Of a DNA stretch of 64,000 nt, positions 33,435-60,386 are shown one piece after another (within the stretch, counting starts at the first letter, position 1; each line of letters starts with the position of its first letter). A model generated the notes under the pieces. The model did not search any database, was not told where the DNA came from, and saw only the letters and a program-made list of their open reading frames with translations. The stretch is from Slackia sp. (GTDB lineage Bacteria > Actinomycetota > Coriobacteriia > Anaerosomatales > Anaerosomataceae): assembly GCA_020725885.1 (NCBI GenBank), contig DYEA01000016.1, forward strand, positions 62,001 to 126,000, read 5' to 3'. Both the position numbers and the translations under genes were made by a program.

Positions 33435-35087
33435 TCACCCGCGCGGCGGCACCGCCAGATTGGGATCAGCGAACGCGAACGGCACGCCGTCGTTCTTCGA
33501 AGCGTACATGGCCATGTCCGCCGCGTGCATCAGCTCGCTGAAGCTGCGCCCGTCGGTGGGATAGAAGGCGATCCCCAGCGAGACCTCGATGGGCACCGCG
33601 CCGTCTTCGGTGATGAGCGGCTCTTCGAGCACCTTGACGATCTTGCGAGCGACGAGCCCCGCCGCTTTCCGTGAGTTCACGTTGGGCAGCAGGATCGTGA
33701 ACTCGTCGCCGCCCAGCCGTGCCACCGTGTCGCTTCTGCGGACGACCCTGCTCAGGCGGCGCCCGATCTCCGCGAGCAGCGCGTCGCCCACTGCGTGGCC
33801 CAGCGTATCGTTGACGAGCTTGAAGTCGTTGATGTCCATGAACATGACCGCGAAGCACGAGTCCTCGCGCTCGGCGCGGCTGATGGCGACGGCCAGGCGG
33901 TCGTCGAACAGCGCACGGTTCGGCAGCCCGGTGAGCAGGTCGTAGTACGCCATCTTCCGGATGGTCTCTTCGGCGCGCTTGCGCTCGGTGATGTCGTGCG
34001 CGACGGCCTGGACTGCAGGGCGCCCGTGGTACATCAGCGGAGTCGAGCTGACCTGCACGTCGACCGTCGAGCCGTCCTTCCTGAGGAACCGGAACTCGGT
34101 CGGCGGGAGCGGGCGACGCTCGATCACGGTCGTCCGGAGCGCGGCGGCGGCGCGGTCCTTGTACGCCGGATCCACGAACTCGAGCACGTGCGTGCCGAGC
34201 AGGTCCCGCGGGTCGTCGTAGCCGAGCATCCGCGCCCCGTTGGGGTTGATGAAGGACACGATGCCTTCGATGTGCACGAGGATCAGGTCGGGGGCCATCT
34301 CGACGAGGCTGCGGAACCGCTCCTCGCTCTCGCGCAGCGCCTTCTCGGCGCGACGCCGAACGGCGATCTCCTCGGTCAGGAGCTCGTTGGCCTTCTCCAG
34401 TTCGGCGGTCCGCTCGTGGACCTCGCGCTCGAGCCGTTCGTTGTACTCCTGCAAGGCGGTCTCGGCCCTGCGCACGTTGGTGATGTCCCGAGCGGTCTCG
34501 ACCACAGACTCGATCGAGCCGTCGGTCGCGAGGACGGGGTAGAACGTGGACTCGATCCAGCGCTCAGCGCCCGACGTGTCGACGCTGCGCCGGACGCTGT
34601 CCTGGGGAGCGTGGGTGCGGACGACGTCGTCCAGCCTGCACGCCTCGCACGGGCCGTCCAGTCCCAGCACCGCTTCGTAGCAGCGCTTGCCGACCAATGC
34701 GGCCGGGTCCAGCCCCGTGAGGCGCTTCGTGGCGGGGTTCGCGTAGCGGACGGTGTAGTCGGGATCGAGCACGACGACCGGGTCGGGGCTGTAGTCGTAC
34801 ACCATCTGGAGCTTGGAGCGCTCGTGCTCGAGCGTCCGCACGGTGGCGGCGTACTTGTCGAACATCGTCTGCGTGTACCAGGCGCCGCTCGCGATGAGCG
34901 CCGTGACGACGATGCGCAGCGCGAGCGTGGCCGGCTCAGGGTTCAAGAGGTCTTGCACGAATCCGCGGGCCTCGGGCGACAGCACGCCGTGCACGTAGCT
35001 CACGCCAAGCCAGAACGCGACTATGATGGCCAGAGCAGCAGCGAACAGCCGCGGCTCGGACCGCGAACCGTCTCGTGCGCGACCCAT
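33435..35087 (-). CDS. Membrane PAS-PAS-GGDEF diguanylate cyclase
   Basis: About 550 residues. Two membrane helices near the N-terminus (LFAAALAIIVAFWLGVSY and a second around residue 60) are followed by a PAS domain (about 95-210) containing a C-x2-C (PCEAC), a coiled coil, a second PAS (about 260-380) and a GGDEF domain. The catalytic RLGGDEF is intact, and RRSD lies five residues ahead, so the I-site for c-di-GMP feedback is present. The enzyme should make c-di-GMP from GTP in response to a signal sensed by PAS. ATG seven bases after AGGGG; another ATG five codons earlier is possible. Confidence 0.92.
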   Translation of the reverse strand: MGRARDGSRSEPRLFAAALAIIVAFWLGVSYVHGVLSPEARGFVQDLLNPEPATLALRIVVTALIASGAWYTQTMFDKYAATVRTLEHERSKLQMVYDYSPDPVVVLDPDYTVRYANPATKRLTGLDPAALVGKRCYEAVLGLDGPCEACRLDDVVRTHAPQDSVRRSVDTSGAERWIESTFYPVLATDGSIESVVETARDITNVRRAETALQEYNERLEREVHERTAELEKANELLTEEIAVRRRAEKALRESEERFRSLVEMAPDLILVHIEGIVSFINPNGARMLGYDDPRDLLGTHVLEFVDPAYKDRAAAALRTTVIERRPLPPTEFRFLRKDGSTVDVQVSSTPLMYHGRPAVQAVAHDITERKRAEETIRKMAYYDLLTGLPNRALFDDRLAVAISRAEREDSCFAVMFMDINDFKLVNDTLGHAVGDALLAEIGRRLSRVVRRSDTVARLGGDEFTILLPNVNSRKAAGLVARKIVKVLEEPLITEDGAVPIEVSLGIAFYPTDGRSFSELMHAADMAMYASKNDGVPFAFADPNLAVPPRG

Positions 35088-37581: not shown

Positions 37582-38605
37582 CGGGCTCTCCGGCCCGGTC
37601 GCGCCCGGCCCGCTTGGCCGCGTACAAGGACGAGTCCGCGGCCGCGATGATCTCGTCTGCGGTGCGGGGCTCGGAACCGGCGGGATCGAGCGCGACCGCC
37701 CCGCCGATCGTGACGCGGATCGGGATCTCCTGGCCGTCGTCGCTGAAGACCGAGCGGGTACGGACCGCTTCGAGCAGACGGCTGGCCAGCGCGCGGTAGT
37801 CGTCGGCTCCGGCCTCGGGCGCGACGACCACGAACTCGTCGCCGCCGTAGCGGAGCCCCATGTCAGACGACCTCACGGACGACTCGATGCTTGCGGCGAC
37901 GGCCCTGAGCGCCCGGTCTCCCACGCGATGGCCGTGCGTGTCGTTGATGGCTTTCAGGCCGTCGAGGTCGACGAGGGCGACGGCCACGGGCCTGCCGTAC
38001 CTCGCCGCCCAGGCCAGCCACTGCGGCAGGTGCGTGTCGAGCGCGCGCCGGTTCCGCAGGCCCGTCAGCGGATCCTTGGTCGCGAACCTTGTGAGCATGC
38101 GGTTGTCGGCGAGCGCGCGCTCGAGCACCTTCGCGAGCGTGGCGGAAAGCGAGCTCTGGTCCGCGTGCTTGCCGATTGCGCCGACGAGGCGCTCGATGTG
38201 GTGGCTGTACGCCACGTGCCGGTCTTGCGAGCGCGCGGGCTCCATCAAGTCGACCAGCTCGGCGAACAGGGGGTCGAGCATGAAGAACTCGACTTTGGCG
38301 GCGAGCGCCAGAGCCGCATCGGTATCCTCGGGGTCCGGCAAGGCGGTCCAGGCGCTGTCGACTTCGCGGCGGATGGTTTCCAGCCGTTTCAGCAAGGATT
38401 CAGGGTCGTCGACGATGTCGGGCAGCAGGCCGTGGTCCCACGCGTCCAGAAGCTCGGACCACCAGCCGACGTGCGTGCGCTCCTCGTCTGCGAGCGCGGA
38501 GAACAGCCGACGCACCTCGTCAGATGCGGTCGTGCTGGCCAGGGCGCGATACAGCCGCTCGGCCTGCGAGTCGAGCTCGACGCAGAGTGCAAGGATGTCG
38601 CGCAC
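37562..38605 (-). CDS. Ferritin-like domain fused to GGDEF diguanylate cyclase
   Basis: A 347-residue soluble protein. Residues 1-145 are four-helix-bundle-like with candidate di-iron ligands: E10 (or E16), E42 and H45 in an ExxH motif (EERTH), E106, and a fourth helix with H135/H136 and E138. This looks like a ferritin/rubrerythrin-type domain. The GGDEF domain follows with catalytic RYGGDEF at residues 252-258 and an I-site RSSD (245-248) five residues upstream of GGDEF, so it should make c-di-GMP and be feedback-inhibited. GTG start six bases after AAGGA. Metal binding is inferred. Confidence 0.8.
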   Translation of the reverse strand: MRDILALCVELDSQAERLYRALASTTASDEVRRLFSALADEERTHVGWWSELLDAWDHGLLPDIVDDPESLLKRLETIRREVDSAWTALPDPEDTDAALALAAKVEFFMLDPLFAELVDLMEPARSQDRHVAYSHHIERLVGAIGKHADQSSLSATLAKVLERALADNRMLTRFATKDPLTGLRNRRALDTHLPQWLAWAARYGRPVAVALVDLDGLKAINDTHGHRVGDRALRAVAASIESSVRSSDMGLRYGGDEFVVVAPEAGADDYRALASRLLEAVRTRSVFSDDGQEIPIRVTIGGAVALDPAGSEPRTADEIIAAADSSLYAAKRAGRDRAGEPVTLEPR

Positions 38606-47565: not shown

Positions 47566-48090
47566 TCAGGCCCGGGAGCCCCGATCGAGCAACGCTGCCG
47601 CTGCTGAGCGGACGGCGGCGTCCGGGTGACGGTCGCAGATCTCCTGAAGCGCCCGCAAAGGCGCGTCGGCAAGCCGGCGCAATGCGACGCATGCGGAGAT
47701 GGCTTGGTCGCGGTCGCCGCGCTCCGCCGTACGAGCGAGATCGGCGACCGTGCGCTCGACGGCATGAGCAGGGTCGGGGCTTCGTGGAGTCTCGGCCTCA
47801 GGCGTTCTCGGACGGGCAGTCCGTACCAGGAGGACCGCTGCCCACGACGCGGGTTCATGGCCGTACCGGGCGCAGATCCGCTCCGCGAGCGCCTCTCCCA
47901 TCAGCTCGTGGGGCGGCAACCCGAAGTGCCTGGCGAGCGCGAGGACAGCGGTGGGAGACGGAGACCGCTCGCCGCGCTCGATCCTCGAGAGCATTGCGAT
48001 GCTCAGCCCGGTAGCGCGTGCGACCTGGCTCAAGGTCTCGTTTCGCGAGGCCCGGAGCGAGCGGATCGTGTGTCCGACGGTGTTCGCCAC
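47566..48090 (-). CDS. XRE-family transcriptional regulator
   Basis: A 174-residue protein. The N-terminal helix-turn-helix (about 7-60) reads IRSLRASRNETLSQVARATG and LSRIERGERSPSPTAVLALA, a standard Cro/CI-type domain. The C-terminal 110 residues are Ala/Arg-rich with possible HEAT-like pairs (ADLARTAERGD, LRALQEICDRHPDAAVRSAAAALL), a plausible protein-interaction or ligand domain. It is divergent from a small Cys protein with overlapping promoters, so it may regulate itself and that gene. Confidence 0.82.
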   Translation of the reverse strand: MANTVGHTIRSLRASRNETLSQVARATGLSIAMLSRIERGERSPSPTAVLALARHFGLPPHELMGEALAERICARYGHEPASWAAVLLVRTARPRTPEAETPRSPDPAHAVERTVADLARTAERGDRDQAISACVALRRLADAPLRALQEICDRHPDAAVRSAAAALLDRGSRA

Positions 48091-48101
48091 GGCGTGATTT
48101 T

Positions 48102-48148
48102 ACTCGAATGGCAAAAGGTTTGACAAGTTTGGCAATTGCTGCTATCGT
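48102..48148. promoter_or_regulatory. Overlapping divergent promoters with TTTGRCAA repeats
   Basis: On the plus strand, TTGACA (48120-48125), a 17-base spacer and TATCGT (48143-48148). On the minus strand, TTGTCA reads back into a TAAAAT box with an 18-base spacer. TTTGACAA and TTTGGCAA are adjacent near-repeats nine bases apart inside the shared region. A regulator bound here could block both promoters; the XRE protein is the obvious candidate. Confidence 0.55.
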
Positions 48149-48600: not shown

Positions 48601-49446
48601 ATGGCGGAGATCGTCGCTGATGAGGTGGTCTCGAGGCCAGCGTCAGTGCGCCTGAAGCCGACGCTTGTCGTCACGGCCGCATGGGGCTTCGTGGCCATCA
48701 TCGCTGCGTTCCGAGAGACGTCGGCGAGCGCGTGGCCGCTGTTCTGCATCCCGACCGTGCTGGCCGGCCTCCTGTTGCACGTCCCGGGCGCTCTCGTGTT
48801 CGGTGCGCTCAGTGCCGTGGTGGTCTTCCTTGCGACCGGCGATCCAGGCGTCACGGCTTGGGTCGGGCTCGGCGCGGCCGTGGCGGCGGGAGTGCTGGCC
48901 GGGGAGGCCGCTCAGCGATGGGAGGCCCAAGAGCGCCGGCTTGCGAGCGCGGTCGTGATCGATCCCGAGACGGGAGCGTGCACGCATGCGCACTTCGAGG
49001 CGCGGCTCCGCGAGGAGACTCGGCGATGCGTCAGGTACGGGTGCACGGTCGGAGCGCTCCGGATCTCGATCGACGGGTTCGCGGAGCTCGCTCAGAAGTT
49101 CGGCGCACGCCGGGCGGATGCCATGCTCCACCGGCTCGCGGAGCTCGTCCGGGCGACCATCCGTGAGACGGATACCATCGGCCGCGTCGGAGACCACGAC
49201 CTGGGGGCGCTCCTGCCGTTCGCGTCTGTGCCGGAGTGCGAGGCGGTGTCCCAGCGCATCCGCGAGGTCGTAGAGCAGGCGCGATTCGAAGGCGACTCGG
49301 TGGAGCCGACGGTGTCGGTGCGCGTATCGGTCTCGTGGGCGGTGTTCCCTGAGGAGGCGACGAGCGTCGAGGACGTGCTCGACCTGCTCGAGCAGCGTCT
49401 CGTCGGATCGCGGGGCACTGCCCTGGCGCCGGGAGCATCGAGATGA
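48601..49446 (+). CDS. Membrane protein with degenerate GGDEF domain and intact I-site (probable c-di-GMP receptor)
   Basis: A 281-residue protein. Residues about 20-100 contain three to four membrane helices (LVVTAAWGFVAIIAAF, LFCIPTVLAGLLLHV, VFGALSAVVVFLA, then WVGLGAAVAAGVLAG). A GGDEF-fold domain follows (about 118-270). The active site reads GDHDL at residues 197-201 instead of GGDEF, so catalysis is not expected. RETD at 188-191 is the I-site RxxD exactly five residues before. This pattern is that of PelD-type c-di-GMP receptors. The stop overlaps mrpE (ATGA), and all following genes are antiporter subunits. Confidence 0.8.
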   Translation: MAEIVADEVVSRPASVRLKPTLVVTAAWGFVAIIAAFRETSASAWPLFCIPTVLAGLLLHVPGALVFGALSAVVVFLATGDPGVTAWVGLGAAVAAGVLAGEAAQRWEAQERRLASAVVIDPETGACTHAHFEARLREETRRCVRYGCTVGALRISIDGFAELAQKFGARRADAMLHRLAELVRATIRETDTIGRVGDHDLGALLPFASVPECEAVSQRIREVVEQARFEGDSVEPTVSVRVSVSWAVFPEEATSVEDVLDLLEQRLVGSRGTALAPGASR

Positions 49447-49922
49447 AGGCGCTGCAGGCGGGGCTGTGGCTTGCCGCGTTCTGGTTGGTGCTTGCGGGGG
49501 CCTCGGGAGTTGCGACGGCGGTGGTCGGACTCGCGGGCGCTGCTGGACTGGCGGCGTGGGCGGCCTATAGCCTCTGGGCAGAAGACGACCCTCCCGTCCT
49601 GAGCGCCCGGCAGTGGATTCGCTTCGCCGGCTACTGCGTGGGCCTGGTGCGAGACATCGTCGCCGCGGCGATACTCGTGGCCGAGAAAGTACTCGATCCC
49701 CGGATGCCCATCGACCCGGTGCTCGTCGTCCACCGGGCGCGCTTCGGCCGCGAGGTGAGCAAGATCGCGCTTGCGAACTCCATCACGCTCACGCCCGGGA
49801 CGCTCACGGTCGACGTCGACGGCGACGAGTTCGTCATCCACTGCTTGGCGGAAGAGTTCAGCTCAGAGATCCGGGACGGCACGTTCGAACGCAGGATCAG
49901 GCGCGTCTTCGAGGAGCGATGA
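49443..49922 (+). CDS. mrpE: Mrp/Mnh-type antiporter subunit E
   Basis: A 159-residue membrane protein. Two to three N-terminal helices are followed by the MrpE family domain with VVHRARFGREVSKIALANSITLTPGTLTVDVDGDEFVIHCL, of which LANSITLTPGT is the hallmark. Part of the hydrophobic Na+/H+ antiporter complex. ATGA overlap with the GGDEF-like gene couples their translation. Confidence 0.92.
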   Translation: MKALQAGLWLAAFWLVLAGASGVATAVVGLAGAAGLAAWAAYSLWAEDDPPVLSARQWIRFAGYCVGLVRDIVAAAILVAEKVLDPRMPIDPVLVVHRARFGREVSKIALANSITLTPGTLTVDVDGDEFVIHCLAEEFSSEIRDGTFERRIRRVFEER

Positions 49923-49923
49923 G

Positions 49924-50199
49924 ATGGGCGCGTTCCTGTGGGGAGTGGCCATCTTCCTGCTCGCTGTGGCCTCGGTCTGCCTCTACCGGGCCTACCTTGG
50001 GCCGACGGTCCTCGACCGCATCCTCGCCGTGAACGTCATCGGCACCAAGACGATGGTGCTCCTCGTCATGCTCGCGTTCGTCTTCGAGCGTTCGTTGTAC
50101 GTCGACGTCGCGCTGGTGTACGCGCTGCTGAACTTCGTCACGACGGTGGTGGCGACGAGGTACTTCGAGACGGGGGCGCTGGAGGGGGACTGGCAGTGA
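49924..50199 (+). CDS. mrpF: Mrp-type antiporter subunit F
   Basis: A 91-residue protein with three membrane helices. YRAYLGPTVLDRILAVNVIG and VDVALVYALLNFVTTVVATRYF are the MrpF signature, with the conserved GPT-x-DR-x2-A loop and a membrane Asp/Tyr pair. ATG one base after the mrpE stop. GTGA overlap with mrpG. Confidence 0.92.
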   Translation: MGAFLWGVAIFLLAVASVCLYRAYLGPTVLDRILAVNVIGTKTMVLLVMLAFVFERSLYVDVALVYALLNFVTTVVATRYFETGALEGDWQ

Positions 50200-50537
50200 G
50201 CATCGTAGGCACAGTGCGCTACGCGGCGGCTGCGGTTCTGATGTGCGTCGGCGCATTCTTCTTCTTCGTCGGAACGCTCGGCCTGATCAGGTTCCCCGAC
50301 TTCTACTCACGTACGCACGGAGCGACCAAGTGCGACACGGTCGGGGCGGGCTCGATACTGCTTGGGCTGTGCGTGCTGAGGGGCCTTGAGGCCGACGTGC
50401 TGAAGATCCTCGCGATCGCCGCCATGGTGCTGCTCACGAGCCCGACCGCCGGGCACGCGCTCGCGCGAGCGGCGTACCGCACGGGGCTGCGGCCGTGGAC
50501 GCATCGCATCGGGGGAGGCGAGAGCGATGACGCTTGA
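50196..50537 (+). CDS. mrpG: Mrp-type antiporter subunit G
   Basis: A 113-residue protein with three helices. The family motif GLIRFPDFYSRTHGATKCDTVG follows the first two helices, then LLTSPTAGHALARAAY closes the third. GTG start at the mrpF stop. It precedes the MbhD-like gene with an 11-base overlap. Confidence 0.93.
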   Translation: MSIVGTVRYAAAAVLMCVGAFFFFVGTLGLIRFPDFYSRTHGATKCDTVGAGSILLGLCVLRGLEADVLKILAIAAMVLLTSPTAGHALARAAYRTGLRPWTHRIGGGESDDA

Positions 50538-50781
50538 GATGAGCCGTCTGTTCGACGCGGGGCTCATGGTCCTCCTCGTGCTCTGCGCGCTGGCTGTCGT
50601 GAGGACCAAAGACCTGCTCGCGGCGTCCATCGTGTTCTCGGCCTACAGCCTCGTGATGTGCCTCGTGTGGGACCACCGCGGAGCGCCTGACGTCGCGATG
50701 ACGGAAGCCGCGGTCGGGGCGGGTGTGACCACCGTGCTGTTCCTGTCGGCGATCAGCAAGACGGTGAGGAAAGAGAAGTGA
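50527..50781 (+). CDS. MbhD/DUF4040-like antiporter subunit
   Basis: An 84-residue protein with three helices. VRTKDLLAASIVFSAYSLVMCL and APDVAMTEAAVGAGVTTVLFL match the domain that is the MbhD subunit in archaeal membrane hydrogenases and the C-terminal part of MrpA in Mrp systems. Here it is a separate small gene, as in Mbh-type operons. GTGA overlap with the next gene. Confidence 0.85.
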   Translation: MTLEMSRLFDAGLMVLLVLCALAVVRTKDLLAASIVFSAYSLVMCLVWDHRGAPDVAMTEAAVGAGVTTVLFLSAISKTVRKEK

Positions 50782-51485
50782 AGCGGGCGTTGGTCATCGT
50801 GCTCCTCGCGATCGTGGCCATGCCGCTGCTGGCCGCCATGGCCGCTATGCCGCGGTTCGGGAGCGCTGAGCAGCCGGCATACACGCATGTCGCCAAACGG
50901 TACCTGGAGCGCGGCGTCGAGGAGGCCGGCGCCGAGAACGTCGTGACCGGCGTCATCTTGAACTACCGCGGGTTCGACACGAACGGAGAGGTGACGGTCA
51001 TCTTCACGGCGTGCGCCGCGGTCATCGCGGTGCTCGCTGGGTCGCGGAACAGGCAGGACCAGCGCGAGGCCGCGTCAAGCGTCCCGGAAAGCCTTGTGGT
51101 GCGGTACGTCGTGCGGTTGCTGGCCCCGTTCATCGCGCTGTTCGCGCTGTACGTCGTGCTGTTCGGCGAGGTCTCGCCAGGCGGCGGGTTCCAAGGAGGG
51201 ACCGTCTTCGGCGCGCTGCTGATCGTGATGACGGTGGCGGTCAGCCGCAACCAAGCGGAGCGGTTGCTGCCGCTGCGGATCCGTCCATGGCTGCAGATAG
51301 CGGGTCCTTTGTCATTCTTGGCTGTCGGGACGGCAGGGGTCGTCCTGACCGGTTGGTACCTCGGTTTTCCGCAGGGTGCGACGGCTGCGACGCGGTTGAT
51401 GCTCATGGTGTTGGAGTTCGGTATCGGCGTCGGTGGAGCGACGGTGATCGCGAGCATCTTCTGGCGGCTGGGTGATGAGGCATGA
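50778..51485 (+). CDS. mrpB: MbhE-MnhB-like subunit (MrpB)
   Basis: A 235-residue protein fusing two modules. The N-terminal 85 residues look like MbhE (TGVILNYRGFDTNGEVTVIFTACAA), and the C-terminal 150 are the MnhB domain (FGEVSPGGGFQGGTVFGALLIVMTVA). In Mrp the first is the MrpA tail and the second MrpB; Mbh splits them as MbhE and MbhF. GTG start. ATGA overlap with mrpC. Confidence 0.87.
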   Translation: MKRALVIVLLAIVAMPLLAAMAAMPRFGSAEQPAYTHVAKRYLERGVEEAGAENVVTGVILNYRGFDTNGEVTVIFTACAAVIAVLAGSRNRQDQREAASSVPESLVVRYVVRLLAPFIALFALYVVLFGEVSPGGGFQGGTVFGALLIVMTVAVSRNQAERLLPLRIRPWLQIAGPLSFLAVGTAGVVLTGWYLGFPQGATAATRLMLMVLEFGIGVGGATVIASIFWRLGDEA

Positions 51486-51835
51486 TCGGCATCCTGTGGG
51501 ACAACTTCGACTACGCCGTCTCGGTGCTCCTGTTCTTGATCGGGCTGTACTGCGTCATCGCCAAGAACAACCTGATCAAGAAGTTCATGGGCCTGAACAT
51601 CATGGAGACCTCCGTGTTCGCGTTCATCGTGGCCTTGGGCGTCGTGAAGGGCGGCAGCGCGCCGATCATGGAGCCGGGCGCCCGTCCTCCGTTCATCAAC
51701 CCGATACCGCAGGCGCTGATACTCACGGGGATCGTCGTGGCCGTAAGCACCACCGCGTTGGCGCTGAGCCTGATCGTGCGCGTGTGGAGGCAGTGCGGGA
51801 CCATCGAGGCCGACGAGCTGAGGGAGCTGGAGTAG
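51482..51835 (+). CDS. mrpC: NuoK-like subunit (MrpC)
   Basis: A 117-residue protein with three helices and the NuoK/MrpC sequence YCVIAKNNLIKKFMGLNIMETS and INPIPQALILTGIVVAVSTTALALSL. This is the E-channel subunit that links the antiporter modules in complex I relatives, and its conserved membrane Glu is at METS. ATGA overlap with the previous gene; the mrpD start immediately follows its stop. Confidence 0.93.
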   Translation: MIGILWDNFDYAVSVLLFLIGLYCVIAKNNLIKKFMGLNIMETSVFAFIVALGVVKGGSAPIMEPGARPPFINPIPQALILTGIVVAVSTTALALSLIVRVWRQCGTIEADELRELE

Positions 51836-53329
51836 ATGTGGTGGCAGTGGCCGCACTGGCTTCCGCTCGCGGTGCTCGTGCCGCTGGGAGGTGGGGTGGT
51901 CACGCCTGCGGTCGCGCGCGGGAGCGCTCGCCGCGCGTGGGGCTGGGCCGCCGGGGTGAGCGCCGCCACGGTCGCCGTCTCGCTGGCGCTCGTGATCCGG
52001 GTGGCGCGCGGCGGCCCCTTCTCGTACGCGTTCGGAGGCTGGCAGCCCCCGTACGGCATCGAGTTCCGCTTCGACGAGGTGAGCGCGTTCGCCTTCGTGG
52101 TGGCGTTCTTGGGGGCGCTCGCGATCGTCTTCTCGCGACAGTACGCACCGCACGCTCTCGCTGAACCGCGCGTGCCGTACTACTACACGCTGCTTCTGCT
52201 GGACATCGCCGGGCTCATCGGTTTCTCGGTGACCGGCGACCTGTTCAACATGTACGTGTTCATGGAAATCGTGTCCCTTACCGGATACGCCCTCGTCGCG
52301 ATCAGCGGCGAACGCATCGCGGAGATGGCCGCGTTCAAGTACCTGGTGCTGGGGGCCGTGTCCTCGCTGCTGGCGCTGTTCGGCATCGGCATGCTCTACG
52401 GGGTGACGGGCACCCTCAACATCGCGGACGCTGCGAGCCGGCTGGGGGCGGCGGCTTCCACCATGCCCGTGATCGTCGCGGTGGCTCTGCTGGTGCTCGG
52501 ATTCATGGTCAAGGCCGCACTGTTTCCGTTGCACGTGTGGTTGCCCGACGCGCACGCGATCGCGCCGAGCCCGGTGAGCGCGGTGCTGTCCGGTCTCGTC
52601 GTGAAGCTCGGCCTGGTCGGCATGCTGCGCTTGTACGGCGTGGTGTACGCGTCGAGGGCCGTCGACCTCTCGTCGCTCAACTGGCTCCTCACGTGGCTCG
52701 GAGCGGTCTCGATCGTCATGGGAGCGTTCTTCGCGATCTTCCAAGACGACATCAAGATGATGCTGGCGTACTCGACCATCTCCAACATCGGCTACATCGT
52801 CATGGGCTTCGGGTTGGCCTCGCAGTACGCGCTCGTCGGGGCGGCCGTCCACATCTTCAACCACGCGCTCATCAAGTCCGCGCTGTTCCTCGCTGCGGGG
52901 GCGATCATCTACCAGACGGGGTACAGGCGCCTGAGCGATCTCAGGGGCGTCGGTAGAGGCATGCCGTTGACTGCCGCTGCGCTCTCTGTGGGAGCGGTCT
53001 CGATCGTGGGCATCCCTCCCACCGCGGGATTCCTGTGCAAGTGGTACATCGCGCTCGGCGCGTTCGAGGCGAAGCGGGCGGCGTTCGGGTTCGCGCTCGT
53101 CTTCGGGGCGCTGTTCATCTTCGTGTACTACATCCGGATGGTGAACGCCTTCTACTTCCAGGAGCCGGTGCACGCCGACGTCACCCACGTCGGAGACCCC
53201 CCGCTTTCCATGCTCGTACCGGTGTGGATCCTTGCCGCGCTGTGCTTGATCATGGGGCTTGCTGGCAAGGTGCCGCTCACGTTCGTCGCGCCTGCCGTGA
53301 GCAGGCTGCTGGGGCCGTTGGGAGGCTGA
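51836..53329 (+). CDS. mrpD: Antiporter-like subunit D, first copy
   Basis: A 497-residue membrane protein with about 14 helices of the NuoL/M/N family. The proton path residues are present: Glu in VFMEIVSLTGY (TM5), Lys in MVKAALFPLHVWLPDAHA (TM7), Lys in GLVVKLGLVG (TM8). Nearest in character to MrpD/MbhH: SPVSAVLSGL and FFAIFQDDIKMMLAYSTISNIGY. ATG right after the mrpC stop. The third helix region contains PHALAEPRVPYYY. Confidence 0.92.
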   Translation: MWWQWPHWLPLAVLVPLGGGVVTPAVARGSARRAWGWAAGVSAATVAVSLALVIRVARGGPFSYAFGGWQPPYGIEFRFDEVSAFAFVVAFLGALAIVFSRQYAPHALAEPRVPYYYTLLLLDIAGLIGFSVTGDLFNMYVFMEIVSLTGYALVAISGERIAEMAAFKYLVLGAVSSLLALFGIGMLYGVTGTLNIADAASRLGAAASTMPVIVAVALLVLGFMVKAALFPLHVWLPDAHAIAPSPVSAVLSGLVVKLGLVGMLRLYGVVYASRAVDLSSLNWLLTWLGAVSIVMGAFFAIFQDDIKMMLAYSTISNIGYIVMGFGLASQYALVGAAVHIFNHALIKSALFLAAGAIIYQTGYRRLSDLRGVGRGMPLTAAALSVGAVSIVGIPPTAGFLCKWYIALGAFEAKRAAFGFALVFGALFIFVYYIRMVNAFYFQEPVHADVTHVGDPPLSMLVPVWILAALCLIMGLAGKVPLTFVAPAVSRLLGPLGG

Positions 53330-53330
53330 C

Positions 53331-54806
53331 GTGGAAGCGGTCGACGTCAGGGTCCTGCTCGCGCCGGCCATCTCGTTCGCGTGCTCGGGGCTCGTGTTCC
53401 TCATGGGCCGCAACGTGTTCTGGCGGCGTTTCTGGAGCTTGGGCGCGGCGTCGCTCAAGTTCGTCGTCGTGCTGTCCATGCTGCCTGCGGCGCTCGCGGG
53501 CAAGACGCTGGTCTGGAACCTCATCGAGTTCACGCCGGGCATCGGCATCGCCTTCCGCGCCGACGCGCTCGGCATGTTCTTCGCCTTGGTCTCGTCGGCG
53601 CTGTGGCTGATCACGACCGTGTATGCCATCGGCTACATGGAGCCCGAGCATGCCAAAGTGAGGTTCTTCGGCTTCTTCGCCCTGTGCGTGTCGACGACGG
53701 TCGGCGTCGCGTTCGCCGAGAACCTGCTCACGCTGTTCGTGTTCTACGAGACGCTCACGATCTGCACCTATCCGCTCGTCATCCACGAGGAGACGCCCGA
53801 GGCGCTTCGAGCCGGCCGGAAGTACCTCGCCTACACCTTGAGCGGCGGAGCCTGCATCCTGCTCGGGGCGGCGCTGACCTACCAGGTCGCCGGGACGCTC
53901 ACGCTCTCGAAGCCCGGGATCGTGCCGGCGTCCGCGGACGTGCGGACGCTCGCGGTGCTGTTCGCGACGCTCATCGCCGGCTTCGGCGTGAAGGCCGCGG
54001 TCATGCCGCTCCACGGGTGGCTGCCGAGCGCGATGGTGGCTCCGACGCCCGTGAGCGCGCTCCTGCACGCCGTGGCGGTGGTGAAGGTCGGAGCGTTCGG
54101 GGTGCTCCGGGTCGTCTACAACATCTTCGGGGTCGAGCTGCTGAAGCGCCTCGGGTTCGCGCTCCCCCTCGCGTACCTGGCCGCATTCACCATCATCGCC
54201 GGATCGGTGGCTGCCCTGTTCCAGGACAACCTGAAGCGGAGGCTCGCGTACTCGACGGTGAGCCAGCTCTCCTACATCGTCCTGGGAGCGGCGCTGCTGA
54301 CGCCTGCATCGGCGTCGGCCGCGGTCGCTCACATCGCGAACCAGGCGTTCGCGAAGATCACGATGTTCTTCGCCGCGGGCGCGATCCAAAGGACGACCGG
54401 GAAGACGCAGGTCCACGAGCTCGGAGGTATCGGGAAGCAGATGCCGCTGACGATGGCGGCCTTCACCGTGGCCTCGCTGTCCTTCGTGGGCATGCCGCTC
54501 ACGGGCGGCTTCATCACCAAGTGGTACCTCTCGGTCGGCGCGTTCGAGTCCGGCATGTGGTGGTTCGCGCTCATCATGGTCGCGAGCTCGCTGCTGAACG
54601 CCGCGTACTGGCTTCCTATCGTCTATCTCGCGTTCCTCAAGGGGCCGCAGGAGGTCGCGGCCGCCCCTCGTGAAGCGAAGCCGTCGCTGCTCGTTCCGAC
54701 CGTGGCGTGCGCCGTGTGGGTGCTGGTCCTCGGCACTACGAGCGACGTGCCGGGCATGCCCTTCGCGTTGGCGCGCGCGGCCGTCGAGTTCGTGTTCAAG
54801 ATGTGA
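53331..54806 (+). CDS. Antiporter-like subunit, second NuoM/N-type copy
   Basis: A 491-residue protein with about 14 helices. It has the same family plan: Glu in FVFYETLTICTYPLV, the VIHEETPEALRAGRKYL loop, Lys in FGVKAAVMPLHGWLP, and Lys in VAVVKVGAFG. LFQDNLKRRLAYSTVSQLSYI is the helix 10-11 loop. The HEETPEA loop is shared with the next copy, so these two look like recent duplicates. GTG start two bases after the previous stop. Confidence 0.9.
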   Translation: MEAVDVRVLLAPAISFACSGLVFLMGRNVFWRRFWSLGAASLKFVVVLSMLPAALAGKTLVWNLIEFTPGIGIAFRADALGMFFALVSSALWLITTVYAIGYMEPEHAKVRFFGFFALCVSTTVGVAFAENLLTLFVFYETLTICTYPLVIHEETPEALRAGRKYLAYTLSGGACILLGAALTYQVAGTLTLSKPGIVPASADVRTLAVLFATLIAGFGVKAAVMPLHGWLPSAMVAPTPVSALLHAVAVVKVGAFGVLRVVYNIFGVELLKRLGFALPLAYLAAFTIIAGSVAALFQDNLKRRLAYSTVSQLSYIVLGAALLTPASASAAVAHIANQAFAKITMFFAAGAIQRTTGKTQVHELGGIGKQMPLTMAAFTVASLSFVGMPLTGGFITKWYLSVGAFESGMWWFALIMVASSLLNAAYWLPIVYLAFLKGPQEVAAAPREAKPSLLVPTVACAVWVLVLGTTSDVPGMPFALARAAVEFVFKM

Positions 54807-54818
54807 TCGGAGGAGGCC

Positions 54819-56321
54819 ATGGGGGCAGGGGCTGAAGTGCTGTGGATGGTTCCGGCGGCGGTCTTCGCTCCGCTCGCCGGCGGTGTCGCAGCGGCGTTCT
54901 CCGGGTCGTGGCCCGAGGCACGGCGTCGGGCGCTTCTTGCCGTCGTGAGCGTGGTGACGCTCGTCCTGGCGGGGTCGGTGCTCGCTCGCGTCACCGCGGG
55001 CGACGACATGTCGGTCCGGCTCGTGAAGATGACGCCCCAGGTCTGGATCCACCTCCGCGTGGACGCGCTCGGGGCCCTGTACGGCGCAGCGGCCGCTGGG
55101 CTGTGGCTGCTCGCGTTGGTGTACTCGTTCGGGTACATGGCCGACGAGCACCGGCTGTCCCGCTACTACGCGTTCTTCATGCTGAGCCTTGCGTGGACGG
55201 TCGGCGTGGCGTACTCGGGCAACCTGCTGACGTTCCTCGTGTTCTACGAGCTGTTCAGCATCTTGACCTACCCGCTGGTCGTGCACGAGGAGACGCCCGA
55301 GGCGTTGGCGGCGGGCACCAAGTACATCGTGTACATCTTGATCGGCGGCAGCCTGGTGCTGCTCGCGATCGTGTACACGTACTTCCTGGCGGGCGGGCAG
55401 GACATCGGGGCGCCGCTGTTCGACGCCTCCGTTCCCAGGAGCCAGCTGCTCGTGGTGTTCTGGTGCTTCCTCGCGGGCTTCGGCGTCAAGGCCGCGCTCG
55501 TGCCGCTGCACGGATGGGTGCCTGACGCCCACCCGGCCGCGCCTGCGCCGTTCTCCGCGGTGCTCTCGGGCATGATGGTGGCTACGGGAACGTTCGGCAT
55601 CATGCGCGTCGTGTTCAACGTCTTCGGTGTCCGGCTGCTGGCCGAGCTCGGCGTGATGCGGGTCGTGGCAGGGCTGGCCGCCTTCACGGTGGTGTTCGCC
55701 GCAGTCCTTGCGATGCACCAGGACGACATCAAGCGGCGTCTCGCGTACTCCACCATCTCGCAGATGGGCTACGTGACGCTCGGGATCGCGCTGCTCGACC
55801 CGCTGGCAGCCACCGGCGCGATCGTGCACGTGGCGAACCACGCGTTCATGAAAGGCGCGCTGTTCTTCTGCGCCGGCCTCATCATCAAGCGGATGGGCGT
55901 CCGGTCCGTGAGCGAGCTTGCCGGAGCTGCGAAGCGCATGCCGGTCACGGCGGCCGCCTTCGCCCTGACGTCTCTGGCGATGATCGGCACGCCGCCGCTC
56001 GCCGGGTTCGTCAGCAAGTGGTACCTGGGGCTCGGGATCCTGGAGTCGGGCCAGGTGGCGTACATCGCGGTGCTGATCGGTGGCGCGCTGCTAGCGGGCG
56101 TGTACCTGCTGCCCATCGTGTACCGGATGTACTTCAGGGAGCCCGCGCCGATCGCCGCCGGGTCGCCGCTTGCGGAATCGGGGTCGTCGGAGGCGCCGGC
56201 GACCATGCTCATGCCGCTGGCCGCGGCGGTGCTGTTGACGGTCGCGCTCGGTCTGTGCACCACGCCGTCGTGGTCGCCGCTGCAGATCGCGAAGGCGGCG
56301 GCCGAAGGCTTCTTCCGCTAG
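54819..56321 (+). CDS. Antiporter-like subunit, third NuoM/N-type copy
   Basis: A 500-residue protein with about 14 helices. It has Glu in VFYELFSILTYPLV, the HEETPEALAAG loop, Lys in GFGVKAALVPLHGWVPDAH, and MHQDDIKRRLAYSTISQMGY. At the TM8 position where the other three copies have a Lys (VVKLG, VVKVG, MIKAG) it has Ala (MVATG), suggesting a changed ion path. ATG after GGAGGAGG. Close relative of the preceding copy. Confidence 0.9.
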   Translation: MGAGAEVLWMVPAAVFAPLAGGVAAAFSGSWPEARRRALLAVVSVVTLVLAGSVLARVTAGDDMSVRLVKMTPQVWIHLRVDALGALYGAAAAGLWLLALVYSFGYMADEHRLSRYYAFFMLSLAWTVGVAYSGNLLTFLVFYELFSILTYPLVVHEETPEALAAGTKYIVYILIGGSLVLLAIVYTYFLAGGQDIGAPLFDASVPRSQLLVVFWCFLAGFGVKAALVPLHGWVPDAHPAAPAPFSAVLSGMMVATGTFGIMRVVFNVFGVRLLAELGVMRVVAGLAAFTVVFAAVLAMHQDDIKRRLAYSTISQMGYVTLGIALLDPLAATGAIVHVANHAFMKGALFFCAGLIIKRMGVRSVSELAGAAKRMPVTAAAFALTSLAMIGTPPLAGFVSKWYLGLGILESGQVAYIAVLIGGALLAGVYLLPIVYRMYFREPAPIAAGSPLAESGSSEAPATMLMPLAAAVLLTVALGLCTTPSWSPLQIAKAAAEGFFR

Positions 56322-56334
56322 AAGGCGGTGCGCG

Positions 56335-58983
56335 ATGCACGGTGAGAGCGAGACATACACGAGCCTGCTGCCGATCGTGAGCGTCGCGCTGCCGCTCGCC
56401 GCTGCGGCAGCGGTGCCGGTGCTCGGGAGGATCCGCGCCGGGCTTCGCAACGCCTTCGTCGTCGGGGTGACCGCGGCGGCTCTCATCGTCGTCGCGGCCC
56501 TCGTCCCGGCGGTCGCAGAGCACCATCGCGTCGAGGCCCACGTCCCAGGGCTGATGGGAGGGCTCTCCTTCGCCGTCGACTCGTTCTCGCTCCTGTTCGC
56601 GCTGTTCGCCGCGTTCGTGTGGTTCGCCTCCACCTTGTACTCGCTCGACTACCTCGCGCACGAGCACAAGCACGACCGGTACCACGTCACGAACCTCGTC
56701 GCGCTCGCGTCCATGCTGGGCGTCGTGATGGCCGCGGACCTGGTGACTTTGTACCTGTTCTTCGAGGCGCTCGGGCTCGTGGCGTTCCTGTTCGTCATCC
56801 ACACGGAGACGGACGACGCCAAGCGGGCGGCCGTCAAGTACTTCTGGATGACTGTGATCGGCGGCTTCGCGCTGTTCGGCGGCATCATGCTGACCTTCGC
56901 GCTCGGCGGCACGGGCGCGCTGGCGCCGCTGCCCGCCGAGGGGGCCGCGTGGCTTCGCTGGACGGCTGCGGCGCTGCTGGTGCTCGGCTTCGGGGTGAAG
57001 GCCGGCATGCAGCCGGTCCACGTGTGGTTGCCAGACGCGCACCCCGTGGCGCCGTCGCCCGCGAGCGCGCTGCTTTCGGGCGTCATGATCAAGGCGGGCG
57101 CCTACGGCATCTTCCGCACCGTCACCGCGCTGTTCCGCCCCGAGGTCGCCGAGCACCTCGAAGAGCACGCGTGGGCGTTCAGCTCGCAGCTGGGCATGGT
57201 CGTGCTGTGGATCGGCATCTTCACGATGTCCACCGGCGTGTGCATGGCGCTGCTGCAGAGCAACGCCAAGCGCATGCTCGCGTACCACTCCGTGTCGCAG
57301 ATGGGGTTCATCCTCGCCGGCATCGGCGCCGCGGGGTACCTCGGGGCGCACGGCGCGATGGGGATCGCGGGCGGGCTGTTCCACGTGCTCAACCACGCGC
57401 TGTTCAAGGCGTGCCTGTTCCTCGGCGTGGGCGCGGTGTACGTCCGGACGCACTCGCTCGACATGTACCACCTCGGCGGGCTGTGGAAGCGCATGCCGGT
57501 CACGTTCGCGCTCATGACGATCGCGGCGGCGGGCATCACAGGCGTGCCGCTCTTCAACGGCTTCGTGAGCAAGTGCCTGATCCACCACGCGATCGTCGAG
57601 GCGTGGGAGCTGCACGAAGTCGCCGCGCTCGGCATCGCGGAGAAGATCTACATCGTCACGTGCGGCGGCACCGCGTGCTCGTTCATCAAGCTCATCGGCC
57701 TGGTGTTCCTGGGCAAGGAGAAGACCGAGTACGGGCCGGAGGTGCGCGAGGCGCCGGCGCGGATGCTGGCCGCGATGGGGCTGTTGGCTGCGGCCATCGT
57801 GACGCTCGGCGTCCGTCCGCAGATCGTCATCCGCGGGATCTTCGAGCCGGGTCTGCACCTGTGGGGGCTGCACCCGGACATCCTGGAGGAGTACCTGTCC
57901 GATTACTTCCTGAGCCGGGGCGACATATCCTCGGTCGTCGTCGCGTTCGCCATCGGCGCCACGGTGTTCACCGTCGGGATGAAGACGGGCCTGTTCCACG
58001 CGCACCTTCCGAACTGGGTCTCCATCGATTGGTGGTATGGGAAGGCGGTCCGTGCGCTGTGGCGGGTCACCGAGCTGATCGCACGCGCGTACGAGCGCTA
58101 CCTGCGTTTCGTGTCCGAGTCGCTCGAGGATGTGCGCGACGCGTACGAGCGGGTACGCGTCCGCGTCGAGCGCACGTACCGGCGAGCCATCGCGGTGGCG
58201 ACGGCCGGCGTAGCCGAGAGGGACGCGCAGCGGGCCATCGCGCGAGCAGAGGTCGTCCTTGACGTCGAGCGGCACGAGGAGGTGCGGACCGCCGTCGACC
58301 GAGCTATCGCCACGCTCGCGTCGGCCGGCGTAGTGGACGAGGCCGAATGGCGGGAGTCGGTCGAGGCCGTCCGGGAGTCTGCGGCCTACGTCGCGCACCG
58401 TCTGTTCGCGGTGCGGATGGCGGCGGTCCAGGACGCGGTCCGGCAGGGGCACGCACGCGCCGTCCTGGAGCGCATCGAAGGGCTCGTGGCCGACACGATT
58501 CCGGCGCGGGACCGCGTGGCAGCGGCCGCGATCGCTGCCGCTGCCGACCGGCGTGCGGGCCGCGACGTCGCCCGGCGGCTCGCCGCCGCCGCCAACGCCG
58601 CCGCAAGCGAGGAGCGCTTCGACCTGAAGCTTCGCGCGCTTGCGCGCCGCACTGCCGTGCCAGGGGAGCGGCTCGTGGCGGGGGCAGAGGGCGCTCCTGT
58701 GCAGGCGCTGCGAGGCCTCGAGCAGGCCGCAGGTGCGGTCGGACGACGCGCCGCGGCAGGCTCCGTGACGTGGGGGCGCTGGTTCGCCGACATGGTGCGG
58801 CTCGCGGTAGACGCGCTCGTGCGCGAGCGTGCAGGCCGCGTGTTCGACACCGCCAGCAGCGAGGAGAGCGTGCTCGCGACCCGGCGCGCCATCACCAGGT
58901 ACGCTCGCGACATGAGCTTCAACGTCGCCGTCGTGGCGGGGATGCTGCTCGTCTTCGTCGCTGCGCTTGCTCGCTCGCGCTGA
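56335..58983 (+). CDS. NuoL/MrpA-like subunit with a long C-terminal helical extension
   Basis: An 882-residue protein. Residues 1-560 are the NuoL/MrpA-type core: about 16 helices, Glu in LFFEALGLVAFLF, KAGMQPVHVWLPDAHP, VMIKAGAYG, and QSNAKRMLAYHSVSQMGF. From about residue 565 there is an unusual tail of about 315 residues, Ala/Arg/Glu-rich and strongly helical (ELIARAYERYLRFVSESL onward), ending in one membrane helix (NVAVVAGMLLVFVAALA). The tail may lie along the complex like the NuoL lateral helix or reach into the cytoplasm. ATG 13 bases after the previous stop. Confidence 0.88.
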   Translation: MHGESETYTSLLPIVSVALPLAAAAAVPVLGRIRAGLRNAFVVGVTAAALIVVAALVPAVAEHHRVEAHVPGLMGGLSFAVDSFSLLFALFAAFVWFASTLYSLDYLAHEHKHDRYHVTNLVALASMLGVVMAADLVTLYLFFEALGLVAFLFVIHTETDDAKRAAVKYFWMTVIGGFALFGGIMLTFALGGTGALAPLPAEGAAWLRWTAAALLVLGFGVKAGMQPVHVWLPDAHPVAPSPASALLSGVMIKAGAYGIFRTVTALFRPEVAEHLEEHAWAFSSQLGMVVLWIGIFTMSTGVCMALLQSNAKRMLAYHSVSQMGFILAGIGAAGYLGAHGAMGIAGGLFHVLNHALFKACLFLGVGAVYVRTHSLDMYHLGGLWKRMPVTFALMTIAAAGITGVPLFNGFVSKCLIHHAIVEAWELHEVAALGIAEKIYIVTCGGTACSFIKLIGLVFLGKEKTEYGPEVREAPARMLAAMGLLAAAIVTLGVRPQIVIRGIFEPGLHLWGLHPDILEEYLSDYFLSRGDISSVVVAFAIGATVFTVGMKTGLFHAHLPNWVSIDWWYGKAVRALWRVTELIARAYERYLRFVSESLEDVRDAYERVRVRVERTYRRAIAVATAGVAERDAQRAIARAEVVLDVERHEEVRTAVDRAIATLASAGVVDEAEWRESVEAVRESAAYVAHRLFAVRMAAVQDAVRQGHARAVLERIEGLVADTIPARDRVAAAAIAAAADRRAGRDVARRLAAAANAAASEERFDLKLRALARRTAVPGERLVAGAEGAPVQALRGLEQAAGAVGRRAAAGSVTWGRWFADMVRLAVDALVRERAGRVFDTASSEESVLATRRAITRYARDMSFNVAVVAGMLLVFVAALARSR

Positions 58984-58986
58984 GCG

Positions 58987-60237
58987 TCAGCGCACGGGCG
59001 AGATCGGTTCGTCTGACGCAAGCAGCGGCTGGATCTCGACCGGCTCGGGTACGGTGGCCGCGCGGTCGATGGCTCGCGCTTCGAGCATGCCGAGCGTCGC
59101 CGCGAGCGCGGTGAACAGGCCGCCGGCGATCAGCGTCTGCTGCACGCCGATCGTGGCGGCCAGAGCGGGAGCGAACGCGAGCGGCACGAGCTCGCCCGCT
59201 TGCTTATGCACCTGGGCCGTCCCGGTGACGCGGCCGATGAGCTCGTGCGGCGTGTCGCGGTGTATGAGCGTCCGCAAGAGCGGCTCGAGCGAGCCGACGA
59301 CCGTGCCCCACGCGAGCGCGCCGAGGACGATGATGCGAAGGTCGGCCGTGCCGACGTAGAGCACGCTGCCCGCACCCGTGAGCGCCACGGCGGTTGCGAG
59401 GCCCCTTGCGGAGATCGCGGAGCGCGGCAGGCGGCGGAGCAGGGTCGCTCCAAGCAGGATGCCTGCGCCGAACACCGCGTTGACGTACCCGATCGCCTCG
59501 ACGCCGGTCTTGACGACGTCGCGGTAGAAGAGCGGTTCGAGCGCGCCGAACGCCCCGAACCCGAGCCAGGTCACGGTGCCCGCCAGCACGTAGAAGCGGA
59601 TCGAGCGGATGCCGTATGCGGTCCGTATCCCCGCTGCGAGCTCAGAGAACGGGCCGGCGTTGTGCTCACGTTTGCGGGGGCCGTCGATCCGCGAGCGCCA
59701 GAACAAGGCGACGGCTGCGAGCGAGGTGAGCGCGTCGAACACGAACACGGCGTCGACGCCGACGGCGCGGGAGATCACGGCCCCGATGACCGGGCCGGCG
59801 ATGAACGCGAGCGAGCCGGCCGACTCGAGATACGAGTTCATACGGGCGAGGCTGCTGCGGTCGTCAACGAGGTACGGGGCGAGCGAGGCGCCGGCCGTCT
59901 GGATGGGCGACCCGGCGAGCCCCCACAAGGCGACAAGCGGGACGAGCATCGTGATGGAGTCCGCGTAGGCCACGGCGAGCGCGATCGGGACGAAGAACGC
60001 CTCAGCGCCCATGATGACGCGCTTGGGGCCGTGGCGGTCGACGAGCAGCCCGCCGAAGACGCTTCCCGCGATCGACGCAGCGCTCAAGCAGAACATCACC
60101 AGCGCGAGCTGGTGCGGCGTGGCGTGCAGCGAGTAGGCGGCCTTGCCCCACACGCCGATGAAGAACGCGGCTTCGCTTCCGGCGCGCGATATGAAGCGGG
60201 CGGCGAGCGCCCGGCGGATGTCTGGGCTGAGGTCCAC
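58987..60237 (-). CDS. MFS transporter (MFS_1/MFS_3-type)
   Basis: About 416 residues with twelve helices. Family loop GLLVDRHGPKRVIMG (motif A), AYLVDDRSS-like SLAPYLVDDRSSLARMNSYLESAG, and a large acidic C-terminal tail. It resembles the RhtX/macrolide exporter-like group. Two starts are possible, a TTG far up and a GTG nearer the domain; the GTG is taken because GGAG precedes it closely. Substrate unknown. Convergent with the antiporter operon. Confidence 0.78.
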   Translation of the reverse strand: MDLSPDIRRALAARFISRAGSEAAFFIGVWGKAAYSLHATPHQLALVMFCLSAASIAGSVFGGLLVDRHGPKRVIMGAEAFFVPIALAVAYADSITMLVPLVALWGLAGSPIQTAGASLAPYLVDDRSSLARMNSYLESAGSLAFIAGPVIGAVISRAVGVDAVFVFDALTSLAAVALFWRSRIDGPRKREHNAGPFSELAAGIRTAYGIRSIRFYVLAGTVTWLGFGAFGALEPLFYRDVVKTGVEAIGYVNAVFGAGILLGATLLRRLPRSAISARGLATAVALTGAGSVLYVGTADLRIIVLGALAWGTVVGSLEPLLRTLIHRDTPHELIGRVTGTAQVHKQAGELVPLAFAPALAATIGVQQTLIAGGLFTALAATLGMLEARAIDRAATVPEPVEIQPLLASDEPISPVR

Positions 60238-60386
60238 GCAGCTCCGTAGGACGAAGGGATGTATGCAGACGAACGCCAATGGTATACGAAAAGGCGGACC
60301 GCGTGCGGCGGTCCTCGTTCGATCGCGTGCTGGCAGCTGGAAGCCGCTGGGTGTAACCTCGTGACGGAGACGAGGGAGGCGATCGC

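Follow-up and report, generated by a model that had tools for sequence, protein, structure and literature searches.

c-di-GMP is known for the control of biofilm formation, motility and the cell cycle, and c-di-AMP controls K+ transport. Among the described systems closest to the locus analysed here is PelD of Pseudomonas aeruginosa and Bacillus cereus, a membrane-anchored degenerate GGDEF protein with RxxD and a third arginine, whose gene shares an operon with the membrane system that it controls. PelD has a TM-GAF-GGDEF architecture and belongs to the pel polysaccharide operon. PelD of B. cereus has a dead GGDEF domain, whose RxxD and third Arg bind c-di-GMP with a KD of 103 nM; when these residues were changed to Ala, no binding was detectable (PMC7112168). 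PleD and WspR are active cyclases, in which the same kind of site (I-site) provides feedback (product) inhibition. Four residues form the I-site of PleD (R359, D362, R390 and R313), of which R313 is contributed by the partner domain (PMC7288161), while in WspR the site includes R242 and R198 from the neighbouring domain (PMC2270323). In an ammonium transporter (PDB 8qj3, 8qj4, 8qpf), coupling to a GGDEF domain is achieved by fusion of the two.

The window, i.e., the whole stretch of 64,000 nucleotides from Slackia sp. that was analysed, contains a gene (48601-49446, plus strand) for a membrane-anchored degenerate GGDEF protein situated in front of a multisubunit Mrp antiporter operon. This protein shares membrane anchoring, a degenerate GGDEF domain, RxxD and the third Arg with PelD, and it would likewise be encoded with the membrane system under its control, but it has no GAF domain and lies in an Mrp operon. 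The initial annotation had called the pattern PelD-like; the likeness holds for the presumed binding mode and does not extend to the GAF domain or to the pel operon. PelD was not found among the sequence matches at E 0.001, which is still compatible with a distant relation. The fold and the I-site residues, including the partner-domain arginine, are those of PleD and WspR, whereas the active site is gone, so the I-site can serve here only as a receptor. In contrast to the ammonium transporter, the GGDEF protein is separate and has a dead active site. The proposed system would resemble the c-di-AMP control of K+ transport in that a cyclic dinucleotide acts on ion homeostasis, although the nucleotide, the receptor domains and the transporters are all different.

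Based on a full-text search, from whose coverage subscription literature was mostly absent, we found no paper linking c-di-GMP to Mrp antiporters; where both occur in one paper, titles and term counts point to sparse mentions only, and a paper on the c-di-GMP salt response of Halomonas does not mention Mrp. The receptor class is already known; as far as these searches show, the novelty lies in the target system, in the GAF-less architecture and in the conservation of active relatives next to the same transporter.

The GGDEF Protein and Its Predicted Fold

The ORF at 48601-49446 encodes a product of 281 aa, in which residues 120-267 match Pfam GGDEF (PF00990, E = 1.5e-17). Based on AlphaFold2 secondary structure and hydropathy, the membrane domain (residues 17-117, 48649-48951, including a linker helix) contains N-terminal hydrophobic helices at residues 18-37, 45-78 and 84-117, with about four TM passes. 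The GGDEF fold with its dead active site follows at residues 118-275 (48952-49425). The mean pLDDT of the model was 85 and mostly 92-98 within the GGDEF domain. VIA-align superimposed this domain on PleD, WspR and other GGDEF structures with Z of about 21-23; for PleD chain 9g86, Z was 22.4 with an rmsd of 2.0 over 159 residues. Thus, both the sequence profile and the predicted fold place the protein among the GGDEF domains. There was no Pfam match to a GAF domain, and the architecture consists of TM helices, a linker helix and GGDEF alone.

An XRE-type regulator gene (47566-48090) lies upstream on the opposite strand, and the GGDEF gene is therefore probably the first in its transcript. A sigma-70-like promoter match (10/12, extended -10) was observed at window positions 48120-48148, about 450 bases upstream of the GGDEF gene and at the divergent XRE gene.

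The Antiporter Operon

The GGDEF gene is followed by ten antiporter genes, all on the plus strand: mrpE (49443-49922, PF01899 (MNHE), E = 4.6e-29), mrpF (49924-50199, PF04066, E = 1.1e-18), mrpG (50196-50537, PF03334, E = 9.6e-29), a gene for an MbhD/MrpA C-terminal-like subunit (50527-50781, PF13244, E = 6.6e-22), a gene for a fused MbhE-MrpB subunit (50778-51485, PF20501 and PF04039) and mrpC (51482-51835, PF00420, E = 4.6e-26, also recognised by NCBIfam as subunit C). Three genes for MrpD-type antiporter subunits come next (51836-53329, E = 3e-64; 53331-54806, E = 1.2e-56; 54819-56321, E = 4.7e-58; all PF00361, Proton_antipo_M). The last gene of the operon (56335-58983, PF00361, E = 2.9e-55) encodes an MrpA/NuoL-like antiporter subunit with a long C-terminal extension; the following ORF, 58987-60279, has the opposite orientation. 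The extension comprises roughly 300 residues or more and has no Pfam match.

Since E, F, G, B, C and D-type subunits are encoded in one run, the operon is of the Mrp (CPA3) type. It contains no hydrogenase genes and so is not that of an Mbh-type energy-converting hydrogenase. The subunit order E-F-G-MbhD-MbhE/B-C-D is that of known Mrp antiporters and the Mbh antiporter module; the differences are the extra MrpD-type subunits, the absence of hydrogenase genes and the GGDEF gene in front. The stop of the GGDEF gene overlaps the start of mrpE by ATGA. ORF and Pfam analysis thus bears out the overlap and the nine further antiporter genes after mrpE that had been read from the sequence at the outset. 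It should be noted that the ATGA overlap is not special, because several genes of the operon overlap by 4 bases.

A Lost Active Site and a Retained I-Site

In place of GG(D/E)EF, the protein carries GDHDL (residues 197-201, 49189-49203). The I-site motif RETD (residues 188-191, 49162-49173) precedes it by five residues, as the initial annotation had stated, and its Arg188 and Asp191 were invariant in 57/57 homologues. PleD residues 285-446 align with residues 114-275, and the offset is 171 at both ends; therefore Arg188, Asp191, Arg219 and Arg142 correspond to PleD R359, D362, R390 and R313. Arg219 (49255-49257), the third I-site residue (of the PelD R402 type), was present in 55/57 homologues. 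In the sequence alignment, WspR R198 falls on Arg145, which together with Arg142 makes up the partner-domain arginines of the I-site (49024-49035 for the two).

To compare the two sites, we used 30 orthologues from the window's order (described below). Residues conserved in active homologues are the metal Asp (D156), the substrate Asn (N164), the second Gly (G198) and the signature acids (E199/E200). D156, N164 and G198 were kept in 0% of the orthologues, E199 in 23% and E200 in 13%. The signature itself takes many forms, such as GDHDL, DRHDL, GPISF, GPETF and HEGTF. The I-site residues were kept in 100% (R188, D191 and R145) or 97% (R142 and R219, the latter in 29/30) of the same proteins. 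The protein therefore lacks the GG(D/E)EF motif, metal Asp and substrate Asn of an active diguanylate cyclase, and it combines a destroyed active site with RxxD and the third Arg, as do degenerate-GGDEF I-site receptors.

RxxD by itself was rejected as a telling sign, since it is common in paralogous GGDEF domains: in five related genomes, 30/37 other canonical and 6/13 other degenerate domains carry it. The weight rests instead on its invariance in 30/30 degenerate orthologues. Against the 6/13 other degenerate domains, Fisher's test gave p = 5e-5, which is only a guide because the 30 orthologues share ancestry and the counts overstate their independence. The freely varying active site set against the fixed I-site within the same proteins is a stronger argument than the RxxD counts.

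A family-specific FEGD motif (residues 229-232, 49285-49296) was invariant in the 30 orthologues of the order. It also occurs in most active homologues and is absent from the PDB GGDEF sequences among the matches shown.

Conservation of Gene Order within the Order

An orthologue was found in 30/69 genomes of the window's order. The set was defined by E <= 1e-93 to the family profile, and the next matches, generic GGDEF proteins, began at 7e-44. All 30 orthologues are located directly 5' of mrpE, most with the 4-base overlap, so the conserved order that was to be looked for in related genomes is present. The initial annotation had named the loss of RxxD from homologues in this position as evidence against its proposal; such a loss occurs in 0/30 orthologues, and conservation extends to three more I-site arginines.

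In many genera, the GGDEF gene and mrpE form a constant pair among otherwise changing neighbours. The genes xre and gatB were found upstream in no more than four genomes, those of the genus, and hence the pairing is not a matter of general synteny. Three operons of the same Mrp type, all from one genus (two in G057 and one in G068), have no GGDEF gene, so its presence is not a condition for that of the antiporter. Genomes of the order also carry a second type of Mrp operon (in the window's own genome on contig C13, near 76.5 kb), which had no GGDEF gene 5' of it in the examples examined. A contig scan with a single protein query gave no match, and the alignment-based scan, which also covered taxa beyond the phylum, returned 20 loci, all within this group, including Coriobacteriaceae bacterium EMTCatB1 and Anaerosomatales MAGs; a record bearing the title Aeromicrobium is among them, but its sequence matches a genome of the order. 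The profile searches covered the phylum.

Homologues in Other Classes

A further 27 homologues from other classes of the phylum were examined, giving 57 together with the 30 orthologues. Nearly all of the 27 carry canonical GGEEF, the exceptions being GGGQF (L197), GSEEF (L218) and GAEEF (L223), and all 27 have RxxD. Eleven are encoded 5' of mrpE of a similar operon, among them L197, with its GGGQF signature and again a 4-base overlap; five are found at the 3' end of a different Mrp operon, beyond its last antiporter gene; and the remaining 11 lie away from Mrp genes. The existence of two separate arrangements with Mrp genes argues for a functional link between the GGDEF protein and the antiporter; the 11 homologues elsewhere speak against the reading as a receptor acting on Mrp.

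The simplest history would be that a membrane cyclase already linked to Mrp became catalytically inactive in the window's order, with its product site retained as a receptor. The homologue tree was midpoint-rooted with no outgroup, so this course of events is only inferred.

In several outer homologues, the gap between the GGDEF gene and mrpE is 190-403 bases, and in L199, L201, L202, L203 and L204 it is an active GGDEF gene that lies 340-403 bases from mrpE. A riboswitch in these gaps was considered and rejected, as there was no Rfam match at the gathering threshold; no Rfam riboswitch was matched in window positions 20000-64000 either.

Most of the homologues away from Mrp genes (L209, L210, L211, L216, L218, L219, L223) are encoded just 5' of a gene that looks from its sequence like a ROK-type kinase gene. 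This context includes another conserved gene, for a product of about 370 aa, and often an rsmI-like gene further on. By its sequence, this putative ROK-type kinase neighbourhood is a second conserved context of the GGDEF family.

Proposed Mechanism and Alternative Explanations

Based on the above results, we consider it rather likely that the product of 48601-49446 is a membrane-anchored c-di-GMP receptor that acts on Mrp, derived from a cyclase that was already encoded with Mrp and then lost catalysis while keeping a complete I-site. The antiporter is probably the target of this receptor, whose mode of action would resemble that of PelD. We suggest the following course of events. An intercalated c-di-GMP dimer would be held by Arg188, Asp191 and Arg219 of one GGDEF domain and by Arg142/Arg145 of the partner, and its binding, as in PelD, would clamp the two cytoplasmic GGDEF domains together. 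The clamping may then reach the membrane anchor via the helix that follows the last TM segment. This anchor, whose synthesis would keep step with that of MrpE, would be seated on the Mrp complex (MrpE being the likeliest site) and would raise or lower cation/proton exchange as cellular c-di-GMP changes. Control of the antiporter by the GGDEF protein is deduced here from gene order, which suggests physical contact and does not prove it.

It is unlikely, in our view, that the protein is a constitutive Mrp subunit or assembly factor, whose I-site residues are kept for the fold or for dimer contacts and sense no ligand. The tight coupling to mrpE and the presence of other invariant residues, e.g., FEGD, would agree with such a role, but many recognisable GGDEF domains in related genomes have no RxxD, which shows that the fold can do without this Arg. 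In addition, exactly the four I-site positions and the WspR partner Arg are kept, whereas the adjoining active site varies freely. That the protein with its altered motif still has some cyclase activity, residual or of an unusual kind, is hardly to be expected: a protein with AGDEF has reportedly been active elsewhere, but here 30/30 orthologues have lost the second Gly along with the metal Asp and the substrate Asn.

The ligand could be c-di-GMP and the target something other than the antiporter, with the protein serving, for example, as a partner for nearby cyclases or as a local signal sink. The two intact diguanylate cyclases reported 10-15 kb away are indeed present, with domains at window positions 33486-33950 (RRSD...GGDEF) and 37595-38080 (RSSD...GGDEF), and G002 has them at similar spacing. 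This arrangement is seen only within the genus and is absent in G014, whereas the pairing with mrpE extends across the order and into other classes, and we regard such a target as quite improbable. There is only a slight chance that the altered GGDEF cleft or the I-site senses a different nucleotide (GTP, (p)ppGpp or another cyclic dinucleotide). According to a review, there are degenerate GGDEF domains with GTP binding or with activity on ATP (PMC7288161), but in the present family the residues of the substrate cleft vary freely with no new conserved pattern, and it is the c-di-GMP site that is fixed.

Returning to the c-di-GMP receptor, a wider proposal, which we hold to be about as likely as not, is that c-di-GMP directly controls a multisubunit Mrp antiporter via a dedicated receptor evolved from an Mrp-linked cyclase. 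The flow of information would then have been reversed, from the state of the antiporter or membrane being reported to c-di-GMP to c-di-GMP acting on the antiporter. If this is true, a receptor of the Mrp operon connects c-di-GMP with the gradients of protons and sodium in the way that c-di-AMP is connected with potassium, and a cyclase has turned into a receptor while its active relatives still stand beside the same kind of transporter. The order consists of subsurface bacteria, in which c-di-GMP would directly control ion exchange. Since cultured members of the order exist, namely Anaerosoma tenue and Parvivirga hydrogeniphila (PMC9686372), the receptor proposal is open to experiment.

The c-di-GMP System of the Genome

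The genome holds 12 GGDEF domains, 2 EAL domains and one c-di-GMP-I riboswitch, and no PilZ domain was found in it. The c-di-GMP signal is therefore probably present with few recognised receptors. The riboswitch (L226, 69 bits) is located at G000:C4:52767-52855, and close downstream of it there is an ORF of 191 aa with a signal-like N-terminus and a metallopeptidase-like motif, HEVWHIID. A second candidate I-site receptor is a degenerate GGDEF protein encoded at G000:C6:214252-214572 (L012) and also in G002 (L164), in which the signature is GDGRY/GDGRF and RLVD is kept.
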